A program made the translations under genes and the position numbers. A DNA stretch of 64,000 bases from Clostridia bacterium (GTDB lineage: Bacteria > Bacillota > Clostridia > Christensenellales > Aristaeellaceae). Below, in pieces: positions 1 through 12,888 of the stretch (positions within the stretch are counted from its first letter, which is position 1; each line of letters begins with the position of its first letter). Below the pieces are notes generated by a model that searched no databases, had not been told where the DNA came from, and saw nothing but the letters and a program-made list of their open reading frames with translations. The stretch spans positions 1-64,000 of the forward strand of contig JAFWQA010000011.1 of assembly GCA_017509255.1 (NCBI GenBank). The letters are read 5' to 3'.

Positions 1-78
1 CGGCAATGCCGCCGGTTTTCTGTCAAAGAAAAACAGTTCCTCAGAAGAAATCGTTTCCCGGCAGTTCTCTTCCCCCAT
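1..78 (-). CDS. 5' end of an unidentified gene running off the left edge
   Basis: A minus-strand ATG at 76-78 opens a frame of 26 codons that is still open at the window edge. The first residues read MGEENCRETISSEELFFFDR. A purine-rich ribosome binding site (GAGGGAAGAG) lies about 6 bases upstream, which is why this start was chosen. Too little is visible to name a family, and I do not recognise it. It may instead be a chance frame. Confidence 0.35.
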   Translation of the reverse strand, partial: MGEENCRETISSEELFFFDRKPAALP

Positions 79-238
79 ATGTCTCTTCCCTCATTTACCG
101 CTTTTCATTGTCAGATCGGGACCGTCAGAAGCAGCAGAAAAGTAATAAAACGCGCTTCGGTTTACTACTCGGAATACCCTGGGAGCCGTTTCTTTCTTGA
201 CATAGAATACCATAGAAAGAAAACCCGGGCAATAAAAA

Positions 239-260
239 CCGGCTGGATCGCTCCAGTCGG
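239..260 (-). terminator. Rho-independent terminator, minus strand
   Basis: On the minus strand CCGACTGGA and TCCAGCCGG pair (one mismatch) around a 4-base loop and are followed by a T-rich tract (GGTTTTTATT). It lies just downstream of the DUF262 remnant and of the 31-bp repeat copy. Confidence 0.6.
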
Positions 261-273
261 TATCATCGTTTTC

Positions 274-304
274 TGATATTCATGTTTTCAGCAAAATTTC
301 ACCA
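274..304. repeat. 31-bp direct repeat, copy 1
   Basis: The sequence beginning TGATATTCATGTTTTC and ending AAAATTTCACCA recurs at 12823-12853 in the same orientation with a single mismatch (A290 versus G12839). The stop codon of the DUF262 remnant lies inside this copy. The two copies bracket most of the low-GC region. Confidence 0.75.
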
Positions 305-490
305 ATCGTAGTTCGATTTCTCCCTACAAGCAAATGTCAGAGTATTTTTCACATCCTCGCCCAAACAGTTCAAAAGCAGATATAGCGCTGTCAATCTCTG
401 CTGACCATCGACCACTTCATACTGATCATTTTCTCGGGAAACAATCAGTGTGCCGAGATAATACGGTGCATCTTCAGAGGCATCGCCAAT
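299..490 (-). pseudogene. GmrSD/DUF262-family restriction protein remnant
   Basis: The minus-strand frame from 490 to the TGA at 299-301 encodes about 63 residues including APYYLGTLIVSREND and VVDGQQRLTALYLL. The DGQQR signature is the conserved core of the DUF262 domain found in GmrS and related type IV restriction enzymes, which cut glucosylated or otherwise modified phage DNA. The frame has a stop (TGA, 491-493) just upstream of the homology. A shifted frame continues a little further, which suggests a frameshift. The protein stops about 30 residues after DGQQR, whereas family members have several hundred more. It is therefore a non-functional relic of a defence gene, next to the 31-bp repeat. 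Confidence 0.7.
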
Positions 491-567
491 TCATTCACTT
501 TTTTCCCCGCGTCAATAGTAATAAAACAGTACCAGCTTGTTTCATCACAGCGGAAATAACTGTTGCA

Positions 568-630
568 AATATAAACCGGACGCAAATACGGGCAATAATA
601 TCTTCGTCCGATTTTGCGTCCGTTTATATT
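568..630. repeat. Long inverted repeat (hairpin) in noncoding DNA
   Basis: The arm AATATAAACCGGACGCAAA at 568-586 is matched by the reverse complement at 613-630 with one bulged base, leaving a loop of about 26 bases. There is no T-run, so it is not an ordinary terminator. The 491-720 interval has no gene. Besides this hairpin it holds only a 9-bp arm inverted repeat (AACCGGAAA/TTTCCGGTT, 689-722) just past the end of the MBL gene. Confidence 0.6.
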
Positions 631-720
631 ATGAGGACTGCGATGATCAGGATCGATCTTTTACGGATTCCCGGTTGACGCACCGCGGAACCGGAAAAGA
701 ACGCGGAAAGCGGTTTCCGG

Positions 721-1743
721 TTACAGCGCGCTACCCCGCTCTTCCTTGGGATCCCAGATGCGGTTGATGTAGTAGCAGACTCTGCAGTCGTTCATTTCCA
801 ACTGCCGGTCGAAAGCGCCGTCCGGCGTCAGCTTGCGCAGCCAGCAGAAGCAGCCCAGACCGCCGGAATTCTCCAGGTGCTTTTCCATACCCGCCGCGCG
901 CATCAGATCCACCACCATATCCATGTCCGGGCTGCGGCGCAGATGCACTTTTTTGCCGTCCAGCTCGGAGACTTTGGCCCGGTCGTCCATATGGGGCACA
1001 TAGTACTCCTTACCTTCGCCGATGTGGCCTTCCAGGATGTACTTGAGCGTATCATAATACCGGTCCACGTATTCCGCAGTATGGATGCCGTTTCCGGCGC
1101 AGAGCGTATCGTAATCCCCGCGGAGGGCCTTCCATGCGCACATGTTGCGGAAGGTGTGTTCCACGGAAATGCGGCTGTCGCAGAAGTTGCCGTTCAGCTC
1201 ATCGCCGCAGAACAGAATGCGTTCCTTTTTGTCCAGGAACTGCAGCGAACCCCTGCAGTGCTCCTCGATGTTCAGCACCTGAAGCTGCCTTCCGCCCAGA
1301 TCGATCACATCGCCGTGATGCAGGAAGACGACCGGATAATCGGTGGGCACCTTCAGCGCGCCGTAAACGCTGCCCATGGAATCCCAGCGCTTCTCGTAGC
1401 ACTTGGGGGACATATACACCGCGTCAAACAGATAGCAGTTCAGCGTATGGTCATAATGGTTGTGGGTCAGCAGCATCCGCCAGACAGGCTTATTCGTCAG
1501 GCTCTGGCAGAATTCACGGATATTTCCGCATCCGATGCCGCTGTCGATCACAATCGCTTCGTCCTCGCCCTCGACCAGGTAGATATAATCCCCGTGGGAC
1601 AGGATCTGCCAGGTGCCGGGAGCGATTTTCTTCTCTTTGAAATAGGGTACGTCTGCAGGCAGGATGTTGCCATCCTCGTCTTCCAGAAGATAATCGTGAA
1701 GGGGCGAAAAATCAATCAGTTCCGGATTCTTTTTCCAGTCCAT
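721..1743 (-). CDS. MBL-fold metallo-hydrolase
   Basis: A 340-residue cytoplasmic protein of the metallo-beta-lactamase fold. The zinc-binding signature THNHYDH (HxHxDH type) is at residues 93-99, preceded by the usual VIDSGIG strand-turn at about 65-71. Further metal ligands are likely in EEHCRGS and FCGDEL. The last 100 residues (KKVHLRRSPDMDMV onward) look like a family-specific C-terminal extension. The substrate cannot be read from sequence. The family includes thioesterases, lactonases and phosphodiesterases. It lies 46 bases downstream of the broken ribose-type permease on the same strand, so it may once have been the last gene of a sugar-uptake operon. Confidence 0.8.
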   Translation of the reverse strand: MDWKKNPELIDFSPLHDYLLEDEDGNILPADVPYFKEKKIAPGTWQILSHGDYIYLVEGEDEAIVIDSGIGCGNIREFCQSLTNKPVWRMLLTHNHYDHTLNCYLFDAVYMSPKCYEKRWDSMGSVYGALKVPTDYPVVFLHHGDVIDLGGRQLQVLNIEEHCRGSLQFLDKKERILFCGDELNGNFCDSRISVEHTFRNMCAWKALRGDYDTLCAGNGIHTAEYVDRYYDTLKYILEGHIGEGKEYYVPHMDDRAKVSELDGKKVHLRRSPDMDMVVDLMRAAGMEKHLENSGGLGCFCWLRKLTPDGAFDRQLEMNDCRVCYYINRIWDPKEERGSAL

Positions 1744-1789
1744 AAGCCTCTGTGCTCCTTTCTCCTCATTCCGGACGGATATCAGCCTT

Positions 1790-2404
1790 TTATTTACGGG
1801 TCCGCTGCGTGGCTGCGCTCATGATCAGCGCCAGCAGCAGAATCAGACCCTTAATGATGTTGATGGAGTAATACGGGAACGCCATTGCGTAAAGGCCGTT
1901 TTCAACGACACCGATCAGCGCCGCGCCTACGAAGGTACCCACCGCGTTGGCCTTGCCCCGGCCTCCGAAAGAGAAACCGATATTAGCTGCGGCGATGGCC
2001 GGCATCAGGAATGTGGTTCCAACGGTGGAAGCGACAGTCCCGGAGCGGGCAGCGATCATCATGCCGCTGAGGCTGGAGAATACTGCCGTCAGGCAGAAGG
2101 CAAGGGTGATATACGCGCCGACTTTGACGCCGGACAGGCGGGCAGCGCCGGGATTGGCGCCTACCATGTAGAGAATGCGGCCATGTTTTGTATAGGTGAG
2201 GAACAATTCAACCACTACCACAGCGATCAGCATAATAATGATGATCCAGGGCGAAGATCCCATGGCGAAGAAAGCATCCGGTACCGCACGCACAATCTGC
2301 CGCCCGGTGGCGCTGGCAACCTTGGGATTGATCATGGCGCCGCCGGAATACGTCATGATGACGCCATCCAGCACAAACTGCATATTGAAGACAATTATCT
2401 TCAC
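1790..2404 (-). pseudogene. Ribose-type ABC permease (RbsC family), N-terminus missing
   Basis: Homology to RbsC/AraH-type sugar permeases is continuous from QFVLDGVIMTYSGG to the C-terminus and includes the family hallmarks GRILYMVGANPGAARLSGVKV and FGGRGKANAVGTFVGA. Complete family members have about 150 more residues (four to five membrane helices and the SxGS segment) before this point. The only available start (ATG at 2402-2404) yields MKIIVFN, which is encoded by an inverted repeat and is not permease-like. Homology ends at about 2384, exactly where the truncated isomerase begins on the other strand. The protein is presumably non-functional in this arrangement. Confidence 0.85.
2386..2403. 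other. Rearrangement breakpoint at a short inverted repeat
   Basis: TGAAGA and TCTTCA flank a 6-base spacer (CAATTA) at 2386-2403. The minus-strand permease loses its N-terminus on one side and the plus-strand isomerase loses its N-terminus on the other, with no other DNA between. Short inverted repeats at an orientation switch are typical of fold-back or inversion junctions, either biological or from amplification or assembly. Confidence 0.75.
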
Positions 2405-3106
2405 AGCGTGGCTGAGCTAAAAGTGGCTATGAAGAGCCTGGCGGAGAAGTACGGCTGCAATGCCATTGCCATTCAGTGCTGGAACGCCCTGCAGTCCGAG
2501 ATTCATATCATGCCCTGTGCGGCAAACGCACTGCTGAATGAAGAAGGCATTCCGGTTGTCTGCGAAACAGATATCCACGGGGCAATTTCACAGCTGATCG
2601 CCGAGGCCGCTTCCATGAATGAGCGCCGGGTAATGTTCTCTGACTGGACGGTGCGCCATCCGGACAATGACAACGGCGAATTGCTGCAGCACTGCGGCCC
2701 CTGGCCGATTTCTGTCGCGAAGGAAAAGCCAACCATCTGTGTGCCGGTTGCTTTCCCGCAGAACGGAGCGGTTTCCGCCGAGGCCAAGCACGGACCCATG
2801 AGCCTGGTACGCTTTGACGGGGACGAAGGTGAATACTCCATTCTGCTTGGCCATGCCCGCGGAATTGACGGCCCCTGGACCCGGGGAACCTATGTATGGG
2901 TGGAGGTTAACAATCTCAAGAGGCTGGAAGCAAAAGTCGTGGAAGGTCCCTATATCCATCATGTCGCGGCAATCCACGGTGATGTTGTGCCGGTTGTTTA
3001 TGAAGCCTGCAAGTATATCGGCGTCAAGCCGGACCTGTACGATCCGATTGAGGATAAAGTGAAGGCTTATCTGCACGGCGAGGATGTTGTTTTTGATGAA
3101 GTCTGA
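2387..3106 (+). pseudogene. L-fucose/L-arabinose isomerase-family protein, N-terminus missing
   Basis: Residues from about HSVAELKVAMKSLAEKYGCN to the C-terminus match the C-terminal half of the fucose isomerase-like (COG2407) fold, with conserved AIQCWNALQ, VVCETDIHGA and an MSLVRF strand. These enzymes interconvert aldoses and ketoses using a divalent metal. The E of CETD is a likely metal ligand. Full-length members have around 450-500 residues, and only about 235 remain here. Upstream codons in this frame are antisense to the permease and carry no family signal. The gene heads the plus-strand sugar operon and ends 33 bases before the transketolase subunit. Confidence 0.8.
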
Positions 3107-3139
3107 GAATGAACAGGAAAGTAATCGGGGGATGAGCGA

Positions 3140-3970
3140 ATGAAGGAACTTGCGGTAAAAGCATATAAAATCCGGCAGGATGTGCTGGACATCATCGTTT
3201 CCGGCGGCGGCGGGCATATCGGCGGAGATATGAGCAGCGTGGAAATCATGCTGACACTCTATAACCGGATGAATGTCAGCCCGGAAAAGGCAAAGGATCC
3301 GGACAGGGACCGGTTTGTCCTCTCCAAAGGGCATTGCGTGGAAACCCTGTACGCGGTGCTGGCGGAGAAAGGATTCCTGGACATTGAAGAAGTCAAGGCA
3401 AAGTTTTCCAAATTCGGAAGTGAGTATATCGGTCATCCCCATAACACCATTCCGGGGATAGAGATGAACTCAGGCTCCCTGGGACACGGGCTTTCCGTAT
3501 GCGTAGGCATGGCTCTGGCCGGCCGTATGGACGGAAAAAAATACCGGGTCTACACTCTGATGGGTGACGGCGAACTTGCGGAAGGTTCCATCTGGGAGGG
3601 CCTGATGGCAGCGAGCCACTATAAACTGGACAATCTGTGCGCAGTGGTGGACCGGAACCATCTGCAGATTTCGGGTAATACAGAAGATGTGATGGGGCAT
3701 CATGACTTACATGCCCGCTTCTCATCCTTTGACTGGCACGTAATCAATGTGGCCGACGGAAATGATATCGACCAGCTGAATGCCGCTTTTGATGAAGCAG
3801 AAAAAATCAAGGGCTGCCCTACTGTGATTATTGCCGATACCGTGAAGGGAAAGGGAGCCGCCCTGATGGAAAACAAGGCATCGTGGCATCATCACCTGCC
3901 GAACCAGGAAGAGTATGAACAAATCAGCAAGGAACTGAAAGCCAGGAGGGAGGCGCTTGAGCATGAATAA
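3140..3970 (+). CDS. Transketolase, N-terminal (ThDP-binding) subunit
   Basis: A 276-residue protein matching the N-terminal half of transketolase: GGGGHIGGDMSS near residue 20, LSKGHCVETLYAVL, the GSLGHGLSVCVGMALAG stretch, and the thiamine diphosphate/metal motif GDGELAEGSIWE followed by DRNHLQ. Split transketolases act as heteromers with a separate C-terminal subunit, and that subunit is the next gene (8-bp overlap, so translation is probably coupled). It transfers two-carbon ketol units between sugar phosphates. The setting with an isomerase, FGGY kinase and sugar-kinase genes suggests a dedicated catabolic enzyme, not the housekeeping one. The ATG at 3140 follows a GGGGATGAGCGA stretch with a modest ribosome binding site. 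Confidence 0.92.
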   Translation: MKELAVKAYKIRQDVLDIIVSGGGGHIGGDMSSVEIMLTLYNRMNVSPEKAKDPDRDRFVLSKGHCVETLYAVLAEKGFLDIEEVKAKFSKFGSEYIGHPHNTIPGIEMNSGSLGHGLSVCVGMALAGRMDGKKYRVYTLMGDGELAEGSIWEGLMAASHYKLDNLCAVVDRNHLQISGNTEDVMGHHDLHARFSSFDWHVINVADGNDIDQLNAAFDEAEKIKGCPTVIIADTVKGKGAALMENKASWHHHLPNQEEYEQISKELKARREALEHE

Positions 3971-4898
3971 GATCGCAAACCGTGCCGTAATGTGCGAGGT
4001 ACTGAAAGAAGCTGCCTCCAAAGACAAAGATGTTGTGGTGCTTTGCAGTGACAGCCGCGGATCCGCTTCGCTGACTTCTTTTGCGGATACTTATCCGGAA
4101 CAGTTTGTGGAAGTGGGTATTGCTGAACAGAATCTGGTCAGTATTGCGGCCGGCCTGGCTTCTTGCGGCAAAAAATCCTTTGCGGTATCTCCTGCTTCGT
4201 TTATCTCCACCCGCAGTTACGAGCAGTGCAAGGTGGATTGTGCTTACTCCAACACAAACGTGAAGCTGGTCGGCATCTCCGGCGGCGTGTCCTATGGTGC
4301 GCTGGGCATGACCCATCATTCCGCGCAGGATATCGCGGCGATGAGCGCGATTCCCGGCATGAGAGTTTATCTTCCCAGCGACAGGCATCAGACCAGGAAG
4401 CTGTTTGAGACACTGCTTCAGGATCATCAAACCGCCTATATCCGATTGGGGCGCAATCCTGTGGAGGATACCTACGAAGAAGGAAACGTCCCCTTTGAGA
4501 TGGATCGTGCAACAGTACTGGGCGAGGGAACGGATGTGCTCCTGGTTGCCTGCGGCGAAATGGTGCGGCCGGCCAAGGACGCGATGGAACTGCTGAAACA
4601 AAAAGGCATTTCCGCAGGCGCACTGGATATGTACTGTGTCAAGCCGCTGGACAGTGAAGGACTGCTGAAAGCAGCTAAGGGCAAGAAGCTTGTTGTAACA
4701 GTGGAAGAACATGCGCCTTTCGGCGGCCTTGGCAGCATGGTGGCACAGGTGATCAGCGCGAATGATCCGAAGCGGGTGATAAACCTTGCACTGCCTGACA
4801 CGCCGGTGATTACCGGAACATCCGCTCAGGTGTTCCATTATTACGGACTCGATACGGAGGGAATCGCGGCAAGCGTTTGTAAGGCATTGGAGGAATAA
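3963..4898 (+). CDS. Transketolase, C-terminal (pyrimidine-binding) subunit
   Basis: A 311-residue partner of the preceding subunit. It carries the pyrimidine-domain signatures VLCSDSRGSASLTSF, FVEVGIAEQNLVSIAAGLA (the E of GIAEQ activates ThDP) and the C-terminal regulatory fold (DVLLVACGEMV, VTVEEHAPFGGLGS). ATG at 3963 was chosen over the in-frame TTG at 3957 because it overlaps the upstream stop in the ATGAATAA arrangement typical of coupled genes. The downstream kinase starts 4 bases after its stop. Confidence 0.92.
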   Translation: MNKIANRAVMCEVLKEAASKDKDVVVLCSDSRGSASLTSFADTYPEQFVEVGIAEQNLVSIAAGLASCGKKSFAVSPASFISTRSYEQCKVDCAYSNTNVKLVGISGGVSYGALGMTHHSAQDIAAMSAIPGMRVYLPSDRHQTRKLFETLLQDHQTAYIRLGRNPVEDTYEEGNVPFEMDRATVLGEGTDVLLVACGEMVRPAKDAMELLKQKGISAGALDMYCVKPLDSEGLLKAAKGKKLVVTVEEHAPFGGLGSMVAQVISANDPKRVINLALPDTPVITGTSAQVFHYYGLDTEGIAASVCKALEE

Positions 4899-4902
4899 AA
4901 CA

Positions 4903-6381
4903 ATGGCCAAGTATGTATTGTCTGTGGACCAGAGTACCCAGGGAACCAAAGCTCTGCTCTTTGACGATCAGGGGGCCCTCCTGTGCCGTACAGACAAGGC
5001 CCACCGACAGATAACCAATGCGCACGGATGGGTGGAGCATGATCCGGAAGAAATCTATGCCAATACGCTGCAGGTCATCCGTGACCTGGTTGAAAAAGCA
5101 GACATTGACAAAGAAGCTCTGGCAGTACTCGGTATCAGCAATCAGCGGGAGACATCTGTGTGCTGGGACCGGGAAACCGGAAAGCCGGTATGCAACGCCA
5201 TTGTCTGGCAGTGTGCCAGGGCAGCGGCTATTTGTGAAAACATGGAGCGGGAAGGCTATGGGGAAAAAGTCAGGCAGAAAACCGGTATCCGGCTTTCGCC
5301 GTACTTTCCTGCGGCAAAACTGTCCTGGGTTTTCAGGAATGTCAAAGGAACAGCCGAACGGGCCAGAGAAGGAAAAATCGCGGTCGGTACGGTGGACAGC
5401 TGGCTGATCTACCGGCTGACAGGCGGAAAGAGGCATCAGACGGATTATTCCAACGCGTCGCGCACACAGCTGTTTAATCTGAAAACCCTCTCATGGGATC
5501 CGGAACTGCTTGCGTTGTTTGGCATTCCGCATGAATGTTTGGCCAAGGTAACGGATTCAGACGGGGATTTCGGTGAAACCGATTTGGATGGATGGCTGGA
5601 GAAGCCGATTCCGATCCGGGGCGTGCTGGGCGACTCCCACGGGGCGCTGCTGGGACAGGGCTGCCTGGAACCCGGTATGGTCAAAGCGACCTACGGCACA
5701 GGCTCGTCCATCATGATGAACATCGGAGAAGAACCGGTATTCAGCGGATCGGGTGTGGTGACCTCCCTGGCGTGGAAACTCCGGGGGAAAATCAATTATG
5801 TGCTGGAAGGGAATATCAACTATACCGGCGCGGTGATTACCTGGCTGAAAGATGACCTGAAACTGATTGATCATCCCGGCGAGACGGAAGCGATGGCAAG
5901 GGCTGCCGCTAAAGAAGATACAACTTATCTGGTGCCGGCTTTTTCCGGCCTGGGAGCGCCTTACTGGGACAGCAGGGCAAAGGCATGCATCAGCGGGATG
6001 ACCCGTGTTACCGGTAAAAACGAGGTGGTAAGGGCTGCCCTGGACTGCATTGCCTATCAGATTACGGATATTGTGACCGCGATGAAAAAAAGCGCGCGGA
6101 CAACCATCAGCGAACTGAGAGTAGACGGAGGACCGACAAGGAACGCGTACCTGATGCAATTCCAGAGCGATCTGCTGAACATTCCTGTTCAGGTTCCGGA
6201 TCAGGAAGAACTGTCCGGTATCGGCGCTGCTTACGCTGCCGGTCTTTCAATCGGGTTGTATAATGATCAGGTCTTTACACGCCTGAAACGAACCGGATAT
6301 CAGCCGGAGATGAGCGCGTCGGAGCGAAAGAGCAAACTGGACGGCTGGCACGAGGCCGTTGACATGGTGAGAAGCAGATAA
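4903..6381 (+). CDS. FGGY-family carbohydrate kinase
   Basis: A 492-residue sugar kinase of the FGGY family (glycerol, xylulose, ribulose and apulose kinases). The N-terminal ATPase fold shows YVLSVDQSTQGTKALLFD (phosphate-1 loop), a central AVGTVDSWLIYRLTGG segment and GVLGDSHGALLGQG. The C-terminal domain shows AYGTGSS-type (ATYGTGSSIMMN) and DGGPTRNAYLMQFQSD motifs. Length fits the family. The specificity is not readable. Placement directly after a split transketolase suggests that it phosphorylates the ketose produced by the upstream isomerase and hands it to the transketolase. Confidence 0.9.
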   Translation: MAKYVLSVDQSTQGTKALLFDDQGALLCRTDKAHRQITNAHGWVEHDPEEIYANTLQVIRDLVEKADIDKEALAVLGISNQRETSVCWDRETGKPVCNAIVWQCARAAAICENMEREGYGEKVRQKTGIRLSPYFPAAKLSWVFRNVKGTAERAREGKIAVGTVDSWLIYRLTGGKRHQTDYSNASRTQLFNLKTLSWDPELLALFGIPHECLAKVTDSDGDFGETDLDGWLEKPIPIRGVLGDSHGALLGQGCLEPGMVKATYGTGSSIMMNIGEEPVFSGSGVVTSLAWKLRGKINYVLEGNINYTGAVITWLKDDLKLIDHPGETEAMARAAAKEDTTYLVPAFSGLGAPYWDSRAKACISGMTRVTGKNEVVRAALDCIAYQITDIVTAMKKSARTTISELRVDGGPTRNAYLMQFQSDLLNIPVQVPDQEELSGIGAAYAAGLSIGLYNDQVFTRLKRTGYQPEMSASERKSKLDGWHEAVDMVRSR

Positions 6382-6396
6382 AAAGGAGGAAGCAAT

Positions 6397-6840
6397 ATGC
6401 TGATCGGGATTCCTGATATCATTGGTTCGGATTTGCTGAAAGCCCTGGCAGACACGGGACACGGTGATCTGATTGTGATTGCGGATCATTTTTATCCGCC
6501 GGTTACCAAGGCGCCTCAGGCAGTCAGTATCCAGGCCAAAGGAGTCGGAGCGGCTCAGATGCTGGATGCTGTGCTGCAGCTGGTTCCGCTGGATGTCGAA
6601 TATGAGGCAAAACCCATATCCTATATCGTTCCTGACGCTGATTCCGGAATCGTCATGGAAGATTCTCCTGTCTGGCAGGAGGTCCGGAAGGTTGTGAAGC
6701 ATCACGGATATGATCCTGCGTGTATCGGCACTCTGGAACGGATGAAATTCTATGAGAAAGCCGGAAAGGCCTATGTGGTCATCTGTACAAGCGAAACACA
6801 GCCTTACGGATGCATTATACTCCAGAAGGGAGTAAAATAA
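6397..6840 (+). CDS. RbsD/FucU-family sugar mutarotase
   Basis: A 147-residue protein of the RbsD/FucU fold, which speeds the anomer interconversion of free sugars (pyranose/furanose for RbsD, alpha/beta for FucU). Visible family features are the N-terminal LIGIPDIIGSDLLKALADTGHGDLIVIADHF with its active-site histidine, the central VQAVLQLVPLDV-like stretch (MLDAVLQLVPLDVEYE) and the C-terminal VVICTSETQPYGCIILQKGV. It has a strong ribosome binding site (AAAAGGAGGAAGC). Pairing with a fucose-isomerase-like gene suggests that it feeds the correct anomer to the isomerase or transporter. Confidence 0.9.
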   Translation: MLIGIPDIIGSDLLKALADTGHGDLIVIADHFYPPVTKAPQAVSIQAKGVGAAQMLDAVLQLVPLDVEYEAKPISYIVPDADSGIVMEDSPVWQEVRKVVKHHGYDPACIGTLERMKFYEKAGKAYVVICTSETQPYGCIILQKGVK

Positions 6841-6923
6841 TCCGGGATTCTTCGGGCACATCCGAATCTGTCAAAGCAGCGCCGGCTTTCCGGCGCCGCG
6901 TCCATGCTTGTGAGGTTAAGAAT

Positions 6924-7814
6924 ATGCGCGTATTGAATTTCGGGTCCATGAATCTGGATTACGTTTATGCTGTGGATCATTTTGTAAAACCGGGAGAAAC
7001 CATCAGCTCCCGCTCCCGGACCGTGAAAAGCGGAGGAAAGGGACTGAACCAGTCCATCGCTCTCGCACGGGCAGGAGCGGATGTGGCTCATGCCGGATGC
7101 CTGGGGAAAGGCGGAGAAAGCCTGCGGCAGGTCCTGCGTGAAAACGGAGTGGATACGGAAGCGCTGGTACCGGTTGAAGAGATGCAGGGCCATACGGTGA
7201 TCCAGGTGAATCCTGACGGAGAGAACTGCATTATTCTGTATGGCGGATCCAATCAGCAGGTGACCGATGAACAAATCCGTGAAACGATTCAGAAGTTCGC
7301 GCCGGGTGACTGGCTGGTTCTTCAGAATGAGATCAATATGCTGCCGGAAATCGTGGAACAGGCATATGACAGGGGAATGCGGATTGTTCTGAATCCTTCC
7401 CCCTTTAACGAAAAGTTGGACAAGGTGGATTACCGGAAGCTGTCCTGGCTGCTGGTAAACGAAGTTGAAGCGGAACAGATCACCAGCTCCGGTGAACCGG
7501 AAGCAGTGTGGCAGATCCTGCATGAACGTTATCCGGATCTTTCTGTTCTGATCACTTTGGGAAAGAACGGAAGCGCTGCTTACGCCGTGACGGAAAACGG
7601 AATTGAGAATGTAAAGCAGGAAGCGGAAAAAGTAAAAGCTGTGGATACGACTGCCGCGGGAGATACGTTCACGGGCTATTTCATTGCGGGATTAATGGCC
7701 GGAAAGTCCTTAAAGCAATGTATGCAGGAAGCGGCAAAAGCTTCGGCAATCAGTGTGACCCGGCATGGCGCAGCGGATTCTATTCCATGGAGAAAAGAGA
7801 TCGCAGATAACTGA
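6924..7814 (+). CDS. PfkB-family carbohydrate kinase (ribokinase-like)
   Basis: A 296-residue kinase with the PfkB signatures: N-terminal NFGSMNLDYVYAV and a di-glycine motif in KSGGKGLNQSIALARAGA, and the C-terminal anion-hole/catalytic motif TTAAGDTFTGYFIAGL. Members phosphorylate ribose, fructose, adenosine and similar sugars. ATG 6924 was chosen because family homology begins immediately. The in-frame upstream starts add non-conserved residues. No strong Shine-Dalgarno is visible (GTGAGGTTAAGAAT), so translation may be weak. It closes the sugar operon and is followed by a terminator. Confidence 0.88.
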   Translation: MRVLNFGSMNLDYVYAVDHFVKPGETISSRSRTVKSGGKGLNQSIALARAGADVAHAGCLGKGGESLRQVLRENGVDTEALVPVEEMQGHTVIQVNPDGENCIILYGGSNQQVTDEQIRETIQKFAPGDWLVLQNEINMLPEIVEQAYDRGMRIVLNPSPFNEKLDKVDYRKLSWLLVNEVEAEQITSSGEPEAVWQILHERYPDLSVLITLGKNGSAAYAVTENGIENVKQEAEKVKAVDTTAAGDTFTGYFIAGLMAGKSLKQCMQEAAKASAISVTRHGAADSIPWRKEIADN

Positions 7815-7827
7815 ATACAGAATGATA

Positions 7828-7868
7828 CCCTCGGAGCCGGGAATCATTTCCTGTTCCGAGGGTTTTAT
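7828..7868 (+). terminator. Terminator of the sugar operon
   Basis: CCCTCGGA (7828-7835) pairs with TCCGAGGG (7855-7862) and is followed by TTTTATTATTTT. It lies 14 bases after the PfkB stop codon. The integrase remnant on the other strand abuts it. Confidence 0.75.
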
Positions 7869-8126
7869 TATTTTGGGCGCTGCCGGGGGCGTTTCCAGTC
7901 TCCTGCACCCGGCTCATCTCCTCAACTGAATCTTCCAGACCCGGATGTGTGTACGTGTTCATCGTCACGCTGATGTCGCTGTGACCCAACAGGTACTGTA
8001 ATCTCCGTCAGATTATGATTGGCAATTCCATCTGGATATCAAAAGGCTCCTCTCTGACACAGTCGTCATGCGCAAACTTCAGGAGTTTTTTATTTTCATC
8101 AATAGCGTTCAGTTCCGTCGATCTGT
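7865..8126 (-). pseudogene. Tyrosine recombinase/integrase remnant with internal deletion
   Basis: Two pieces of an integrase are visible on the minus strand. The C-terminal piece (8004 down to about 7870) reads LQYLLGHSDISVTMNTYTHPG, which includes the GHxxxxxTxxxYxH catalytic segment with the nucleophilic tyrosine. The upstream piece (8126-8008) reads ELNAIDENKKLLKFAHDDC then REEPFDIQMELPI, like the core-binding region, and runs into TGA at 8008-8010. The roughly 150-200 residues that would carry the first catalytic Arg and Lys are missing, and the two pieces are in different frames. The gene is dead. With the excisionase gene at 12.4 kb it marks a decayed integrative element. Confidence 0.75.
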
Positions 8127-9959
8127 TTATGGCTTTTGATCATCAGCCTTCAGGATGCTCATAAACTCTTCACCGGTAATTGTTTCTTTGTTTAGAAGGT
8201 ATTCTGCCAGTTCATGGAGTTTATCTTCGTGTTCCCGCAGAATACTATCTGCTTTCTTCCGGGCTTCTTCTACCAGCGCGACCACCTGTTCATCAACCTT
8301 TTCCGCAAAAGCAGGACTACATGCCAGGGAGGTATCCTGACCCAGATACTGACTGTTCAGTGTTTCCAGTGCCACCATGCCGAAATCACCCATGCCATAG
8401 CGGGTAATCATCCCGCGTGCCAGCCGGGTAGCCTTTTCAATATCGTTGCTCGCACCCGTGGTGATGGAATGGAAAACCAGTTGTTCAGCCGCCTGCCCGC
8501 CTGTCAGGGTAACAATCTTATTATACAGTTCTTCACGGGACATCAGATAATGCTCATCTTCATCCACCTGCATGGTATATCCAAGAGCGCCGGATGTTCT
8601 GGGGATAATCGTGATCTTTGTCACAGGTGCCGAATTGGTCTGCAGAGATGCCACCAGTGCGTGACCGATTTCGTGATAGGAAACAATCTTTTTTTCACTC
8701 TCAGACAAGACTGCATTTTTACGCTGATAACCGGCGATAACCGTTTCCACACTTTCCATCAGGTCGTCTTGTGTTACAGTATCGCGGCCCAACCGCACCG
8801 CACGCAGAGCTGCCTCATTGATGATATTGGCCAGTTCCGCACCGCTTGCACCGCTTGTTGCCCTGGCGACAGCTTTCAGGTCAATGTTATCGGCCATTCT
8901 GATCCCCTTGCTGTGCACACGCAGAATCGCTTCACGGCCGCCGACATCGGGCAGTTCAACCGGAATCCTTCTGTCAAAACGACCCGGGCGCAGAAGAGCT
9001 GGATCCAGGGATTCAGGCCGGTTGGTTGCTGCCAGTATGACCACACCCTTTTTCCCGTCAAAGCCATCCATTTCTGTCAGCAACTGATTCAGAGTCTGTT
9101 CACGCTCATCATTGCCGCCGATGCCGGCTCCGGTATCACGTTTTTTCCCGATTGTATCAATTTCATCAATAAAAACGATACAAGGTGCCTTTTCGTTCGC
9201 CTGTTTGAACAGGTCCCTGACTTTTGCTGCACCCATGCCAACAAACATCTCCACAAATTCGCTGCCGGAAATGGAAAAGAAAGGAACCTTGGCCTCGCCG
9301 GCCACAGCTTTCGCCAGCAAAGTTTTACCTGTTCCGGGCGGTCCGACAAGCAACGCGCCTTTAGGCAGTTTAGCGCCAATGGAGGCATATTTACCCGGGT
9401 GCTCCAGAAAATCAACAATCTCTTTCAGTGCTTCCTTGGCTTCTTCCTCACCGGCCACATCCTCGAAAGTCACGCCCGTTGATTCTGAAGCAACAATCTT
9501 TGCACCGGATTTGCCGAAGCTCAGCGCATTCATCCCGCCTGTCATCCGCCTGGATAATATCCGGCCCAGTGCCCAGAACAGCGCGATCGGGATTACCCAG
9601 CTGATTATAAAACTGATCAGCAGATTGTTCTGCGTTGGAATTTGTGCGGAAAACGAAACTCCGGCATCCTCCAGCCGTTGGCGCAGACTGTTATCCGGGA
9701 AAACCGCTGTCTTATAGATGCCGTCCTGTCCGTCTTTGCCTTTGGCGATGAAAATCAATTGTTCTCCGTTTTCATCCATGGATACTTCTGATACCTGTTT
9801 TGAATCCACCATTTTCAGAAAATCGCTGTAACCGACTTCCTGAACCTGGCGCTGCAAAAGCATCGGAAAAACGAACGCATTCAGCAGCATAATCACGATG
9901 ACTGCAACAGCCATGTAGAAAATGAGCGGCTTTTTATTCTGATTGGAATCTTTGATCAT
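8127..9959 (-). CDS. ftsH: ATP-dependent zinc metalloprotease FtsH
   Basis: A 610-residue membrane AAA+ protease that degrades misfolded and regulatory membrane proteins. It has an N-terminal membrane helix (about residues 12-34), a short extracytoplasmic domain, a second helix (about 113-133), and the AAA module with Walker A GPPGTGKT, Walker B IVFIDEID and second region of homology [19 protein letters not shown]. The peptidase zinc site is HEIGH, with a later acidic ligand. The C-terminal tail is acidic and short (KADDQKP). It is somewhat shorter than the usual 640-700 residues. It lies downstream of a small heat-shock gene on the same strand and is bracketed by integrase and excisionase debris. 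It could be an accessory rather than the only FtsH copy. Confidence 0.95.
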
Positions 9960-12822: not shown

Positions 12823-12853
12823 TGATATTCATGTTTTCGGCAAAATTTCACCA
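12823..12853. repeat. 31-bp direct repeat, copy 2
   Basis: Matches 274-304 in the same orientation with one mismatch (G12839). As with copy 1, a terminator-like hairpin lies a few dozen bases to its left. It sits in the gene-free 12622-13065 interval upstream of the excisionase gene. Confidence 0.75.
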
Positions 12854-12888
12854 GTAGTAGTAAAACAGTAGTAATTTCCTTTTTGCCT

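Follow-up and report, generated by a model that had tools for sequence, protein, structure and literature searches.

Main

The arrangement analysed here, in which a sugar permease gene and a sugar isomerase gene stand head to head and both lack their 5′ parts, has its closest described counterparts among amplification chimeras and illegitimate deletions. According to PMC1855051, 85% of 475 chimeras arising in MDA were inverted sequences, and such fold-back chimeras resemble the present locus in that segments are joined in opposite orientation with a short overlap while the sequence between them is missing. However, the flanks of both segments here keep the order and strand that they have in relatives. 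Illegitimate short-homology deletions in bacterial genomes likewise show one junction with few shared bases, loss of the intervening sequence and pseudogenes in an accessory island, but at our locus both retained parts are 3′ parts pointing apart, as the deletion that we propose would span a divergent promoter region. In PMC3411829, verified deletions had at least 8 bp of junction microhomology and shorter overlaps were treated as being like chimeric reads; at most 3 bases are shared here, which by that standard counts against a real junction. The nearest operon is an RbsABC-type transporter–metallo-beta-lactamase-fold hydrolase (MBL)–isomerase–split transketolase–kinase operon at locus L071, which has the same genes and belongs to the same pathway, although it is colinear and intact whereas the genes described here are head to head and truncated.

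The window, that is, the whole stretch of DNA analysed, comprises bases 1–64,000 of contig C36 (78,376 bp) of the host assembly G000 (62 contigs, 73.9% complete), and its base 1 is the start of the contig. We favour, with a probability of about 0.53, a real junction left by a single illegitimate deletion within an accessory island next to ftsH, in which case the ancestor and the single event would be as inferred below. No inversion would then be required for this striking double truncation, since a plain deletion spanning a divergent promoter could explain it.

Results

The permease and isomerase parts meet at 2383|2384 with zero bases between them. To the left, rbsC′ (1790–2383, minus strand) encodes the C-terminal 197 residues (129–325) of a sugar ABC permease, as placed by domain search and homologue alignment. 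It aligns without gaps to residues 129–325 of the 325-residue RbsC of L067 at 84% identity, and DNA similarity to rbsC homologues ends at 2383, at the ATG, in all seven compared (L067–L073). To the right, isomerase′ (2384–3106, plus strand) encodes the C-terminal 240 residues (235–474) of an L-fucose-isomerase-like protein, placed by domain search and congener alignment; it matches residues 235–474 of a 474-residue congener protein without gaps at 98% identity, and similarity ends at 2384 in the nine same-genus isomerases and L071. The original prediction that both genes are cut at one point with no DNA between them holds, the point being 2383|2384, and the truncated permease lacks about 128 residues instead of 150. 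The predicted loss of the front half of the isomerase is likewise borne out, and because the relatives' genes are full length with a single exception, the assembly holds a genuine truncation. As both genes are broken at one point, one event is enough and two independent deletions, which had been considered the poorer explanation, are not needed. The nearest NCBIfam isomerase model is sulfoquinovose isomerase, far under its cut-off (57.6 versus 700 bits).

Comparison with homologues gives 0–3 shared bases at the exact junction. The two ends share a CTGCA 5-mer offset by one base, a match equalled by 540 of 20,000 pairs of randomly placed breaks. A repeat search and fold test identified TGAAGACAATTATCTTCA at 2386–2403, a near-palindrome pairing at 16 of 18 positions. 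It had been said to coincide with the break, but it adjoins the break without crossing it, lying wholly on the isomerase side within retained codons, and it encodes conserved residues that relatives retain without retaining the palindrome. Near-palindromes of such quality number 21 in the 64 kb, 13% of the window is no more than 10 bp from an inverted repeat whose arms are 6 bp long, and DNA near the junction folds only slightly better than shuffled sequence (z −1.70; 11 of 200 shuffles as good), amounting to a weak hairpin. The near-palindrome may have helped breakage. For a phase-variable switch the partner inverted repeat is absent, the 18-mer (up to 3 mismatches) occurring in the window solely at 2386–2403, and the junction 33-mer has 0 matches in viral_contigs. 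GC3 steps from 0.71–0.75 on the left of the junction to 0.53–0.63 on the right.

Several of these features would also suit a chimera formed within the island during assembly or amplification, in which halves from one or two real loci were joined and no molecule carries the junction. The short overlap, the adjacent near-palindrome and the GC3 step fit this reading, as do the position of the locus at contig ends and an isomerase half that shows no decay. However, a k-mer assembler would presumably require the two sides to have a longer word in common than is compatible with the homologues, and a chimera of the inverted type would flip the left arm, which is not the orientation seen in relatives (below). 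We regard a chimera as unlikely.

The isomerase half has a mean dN of 0.029 to nine relatives, versus 0.033 among the relatives themselves, and carries one private change at otherwise invariant columns (relatives, 0–4). It is thus without relaxed selection, and the event is therefore either recent or not biological; given this lack of decay, a real junction would be young. With dN equally low, its dS to the nine relatives is 1.1–1.7, compared with a mean of 0.65 among them, so the isomerase operon of the island is not simply the genus's own copy.

The junction lies in a 7,789-bp island (274–8062) between two flanks. The left flank (1–273, minus strand) consists of the upstream part and start of a DUF5655 gene and is 96% identical to L108:9184–9457 of G170, a genome of the same genus whose gene carries Pfam DUF5655. 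The right flank holds ftsH (8127–9959, minus strand; Pfam), with 95% DNA identity to G170 from 8063 onward. In G170, window segments 1–273 and 8063–8523 follow each other in the same order and strand, and 210 unrelated bases stand where the island would be. G008 (contig C7, next to where ftsH ends) and G009 (contig C31, in a stretch where ftsH is not seen) have segments 115–272 and 7888–8001 or further only 81 bp apart, again with order and strand kept. These three are the genomes with natively arranged flanks among 45 same-genus genomes searched. The left arm is therefore not reversed relative to its flank, and rbsC and MBL would already have faced away from the isomerase operon when the event took place. 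The stretch from 273 to about 7888 has thus been inserted into an integrase-end/terminator region that adjoins ftsH.

Variation at the site counts against this. The empty sites of G170, G008 and G009 differ from one another, the DUF5655 gene adjoins ftsH in one of 13 loci and sits elsewhere in others (L203–L205), and next to ftsH in G149 there are just two relatives of the flank, both weaker (59% and 50%). Many contigs of the genus start or stop at this locus, including C36 and the witness contigs of G170 and G008, which makes the locus assembly-prone.

Within the island, the left end carries a scrap of a GmrSD_N (DUF262) gene (299–490, minus strand; Pfam E 9.7e-12 over 36 residues), followed by an intact MBL gene (721–1743, minus strand; Pfam Lactamase_B). 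MBL is an operon partner of rbsC, adjoining the close rbsC in six of the seven loci L067–L073; the contig of L069 stops just past rbsC. To the right of isomerase′, all on the plus strand, are the N-terminal (TkN; 3140–3970; Pfam Transketolase_N) and C-terminal (TkC; 3963–4898; Pfam Transket_pyr and Transketolase_C) subunits of a transketolase, an FGGY kinase of the glycerol kinase type (4903–6381; NCBIfam glycerol_kin just above cut-off, 591.6 versus 590.35 bits), an RbsD/FucU-type mutarotase (6397–6840) and a ribokinase-type PfkB kinase (6924–7814), the last two assigned by domain searches. A C-terminal scrap of a tyrosine recombinase (7888–7998, minus strand) was recognized by an 83% DNA match to L206:2244–2134, whose 224-residue frame is a Phage_integrase; the region 7783–7989 itself has no Pfam match. 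A self-complementary inverted repeat at 568–630 (64 columns, 78%) is probably a terminator-like hairpin.

If a simple local inversion inside one operon had made the junction, as was proposed, the N-terminal half of the isomerase should lie on the minus strand to the left of MBL, and if a fold-back chimera had made it, MBL should continue into the isomerase. Positions 1–720 contain neither, and the unflipped flanks also speak against the fold-back; neither proposal is supported. The N-terminal halves of isomerase and rbsC, the binding protein, the ATPase and the regulator are absent from 1–720, 2384–8126 and 10000–64000 apart from chance-level matches or distant ABC ATPases. In the rest of the assembly, searches for the two N-terminal halves, the binding protein and rbsA gave only distant or short matches, which is weak evidence of absence as G000 is 73.9% complete. 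A compound alternative, in which the rbsC(C-half)–MBL–isomerase(N-half) segment of an L071-like operon was inverted and everything left of MBL save the flank was then deleted, has the merit that L071 shows exactly the colinear order required and that inversion alone yields the junction. However, it calls for a second deletion ending just past MBL, the displaced halves, rbsA and the binding-protein gene are missing as above, and the window has no partner inverted repeat. We consider it very unlikely.

At L071, one colinear operon, preceded by a divergent LacI-type gene, encodes a binding protein, rbsA, rbsC, MBL, isomerase, TkN, TkC and kinase, and its proteins are 64–76% identical to those of the window. 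The prediction that both truncated genes belong to one sugar pathway is supported by this operon, and the suggested search of relatives for an intact operon linking rbsC and the isomerase succeeded here, in colinear form. Because L071 carries both modules at one locus, side-by-side ancestry is plausible. The genomes whose rbsC–MBL comes nearest to that of the window, G253 and G254 (which contain L067 and L068), carry the isomerase operon and the transporter on different contigs.

None of the loci opened, a part of those that matched in 61 related genomes, 200 family genomes, the seven genomes behind L067–L073 and 397 genomes of the G254 family, has an intact divergent rbsC/isomerase pair. MBL homologues from family and other draws (13 regions, 12 new loci) lack a close rbsC or isomerase as a neighbour; the one exception, L168, is the L068 operon met a second time. 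Of the 101 records from a plasmid search, not one covers 80% of the query; the best match, from Monoglobus pectinilyticus, has the isomerase operon and a distant transporter on one strand.

Nine of 36 other same-genus genomes have the close form of the isomerase (94–98% identical), with the gene complete at each of the nine loci (one match stops at residue 471). TkN, TkC and kinase follow it in every case, the kinase of L057 reaching the contig end, and a divergent regulator adjoins the operon in eight of the nine. Outside the genus, 19 family genomes from the draw of 200 matched at 77% or more and 11 of their loci were opened; the isomerase is full length in ten (one match begins at residue 5 and one at residue 2). 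In G234 (L114:7292–8714) it has a frameshift at codon 234, adjacent to the codon broken in the window; this frameshift could be an assembly error.

The left module has a different distribution. Its nearest relative is L067 (79% DNA identity across rbsC and MBL), and its nearest relatives are in Lachnospiraceae-labelled and similar MAGs. In 60 other related genomes the best match of rbsC is 40% and that of MBL 56%, the 200 family genomes match the rbsC region over 113 bp or less, and the G254 family has matches in 16 of 397 genomes, the best at 76%. Contamination from another organism was considered and rejected, as no close source was found, the left module having a best DNA identity of 79% (L067). 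Codon use of rbsC′ (z −0.47) and MBL (z 0.83) is within the range of 31 host ORFs and does not discriminate.

This distribution, set against an isomerase of the genus type, together with the GC3 step, would fit a foreign segment of about 274–2383 (DUF262 scrap, MBL and rbsC′) illegitimately joined in place of the front of the isomerase operon, so that the two modules were never intact together. Such a graft needs two boundaries instead of one, however, and L071 holds both modules at one locus; we think it quite unlikely.

In L070 (7754–8591), a transporter operon of the same kind is independently truncated, its binding-protein gene running into rbsC around codon 114 in the wrong frame, which places the rbsC break within about 15 codons of that in the window.

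Discussion

The single-deletion reading supposes an ancestor in which a transporter operon (binding protein, rbsA, rbsC and MBL) ran leftward and an isomerase–transketolase–kinase operon ran rightward, back to back. One non-homologous deletion, with no more than 3 bp of microhomology, would have removed the start of rbsC together with rbsA, the binding-protein gene and the promoter region common to the two operons, as well as the start of the isomerase gene, leaving both genes without their 5′ parts at one point. Most simply, the junction would be ordinary decay of an accessory gene cluster. Two 5′-truncated genes back to back with nothing between them, outer flanks in native order and strand, the separate transporter and isomerase units of G253 and G254, the divergent regulator that borders most same-genus isomerase operons and the independent truncation of the same transporter in L070 all argue for this reading. 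Against it stand the absence of an intact divergent sister among the compared loci, the closest (L071) being colinear and Monoglobus same-strand, the GC3 step, which also fits two joined sources, and the variable, assembly-prone site, whose DUF5655 gene is also found away from ftsH.

That the isomerase frameshift in G234 and the rbsC break in L070 fall so near the two ends of the junction might suggest a recurrent weak point, at which the same two spots are hit repeatedly and strains lose the sugar pathway reversibly or recurrently; we hold this to be highly improbable.

Judging from the sequence, a permease without its first 128 residues and an isomerase without its first 234 are most likely dead, while the frames of MBL, TkN, TkC, kinase, mutarotase and ribokinase are still open. 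With transporter and isomerase probably dead and the five downstream genes and MBL open, the pathway would now be off. If the junction is real, a sugar pathway otherwise widespread in the family has recently been broken in the host genome. For metagenome assemblies in general, comparison with the empty site of related genomes offers an inexpensive check for flipped-arm chimeras.

The gene cluster at 2384–7814 (isomerase, split transketolase, glycerol-kinase-type kinase, mutarotase and ribokinase) is widespread in the family; we found no literature joining apiose, apulose and transketolase. In the genus, remnants of tyrosine recombinases turn up repeatedly at the 3′ end of ftsH or close to it, as a Phage_integrase in G001 and as scraps in G002, G008, G009 and the window (window 7888–7998; L206:1645–2319; L200:12516–12626; L212:1–332; L214:5556–5669), which suggests that this site is an integration hot spot. 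A 39-bp sequence at 274–312 is found again at 12823–12861 of the contig (92%) and in other members of the genus; once, in G009 (L214:6192–6154), it lies near the integrase scrap.
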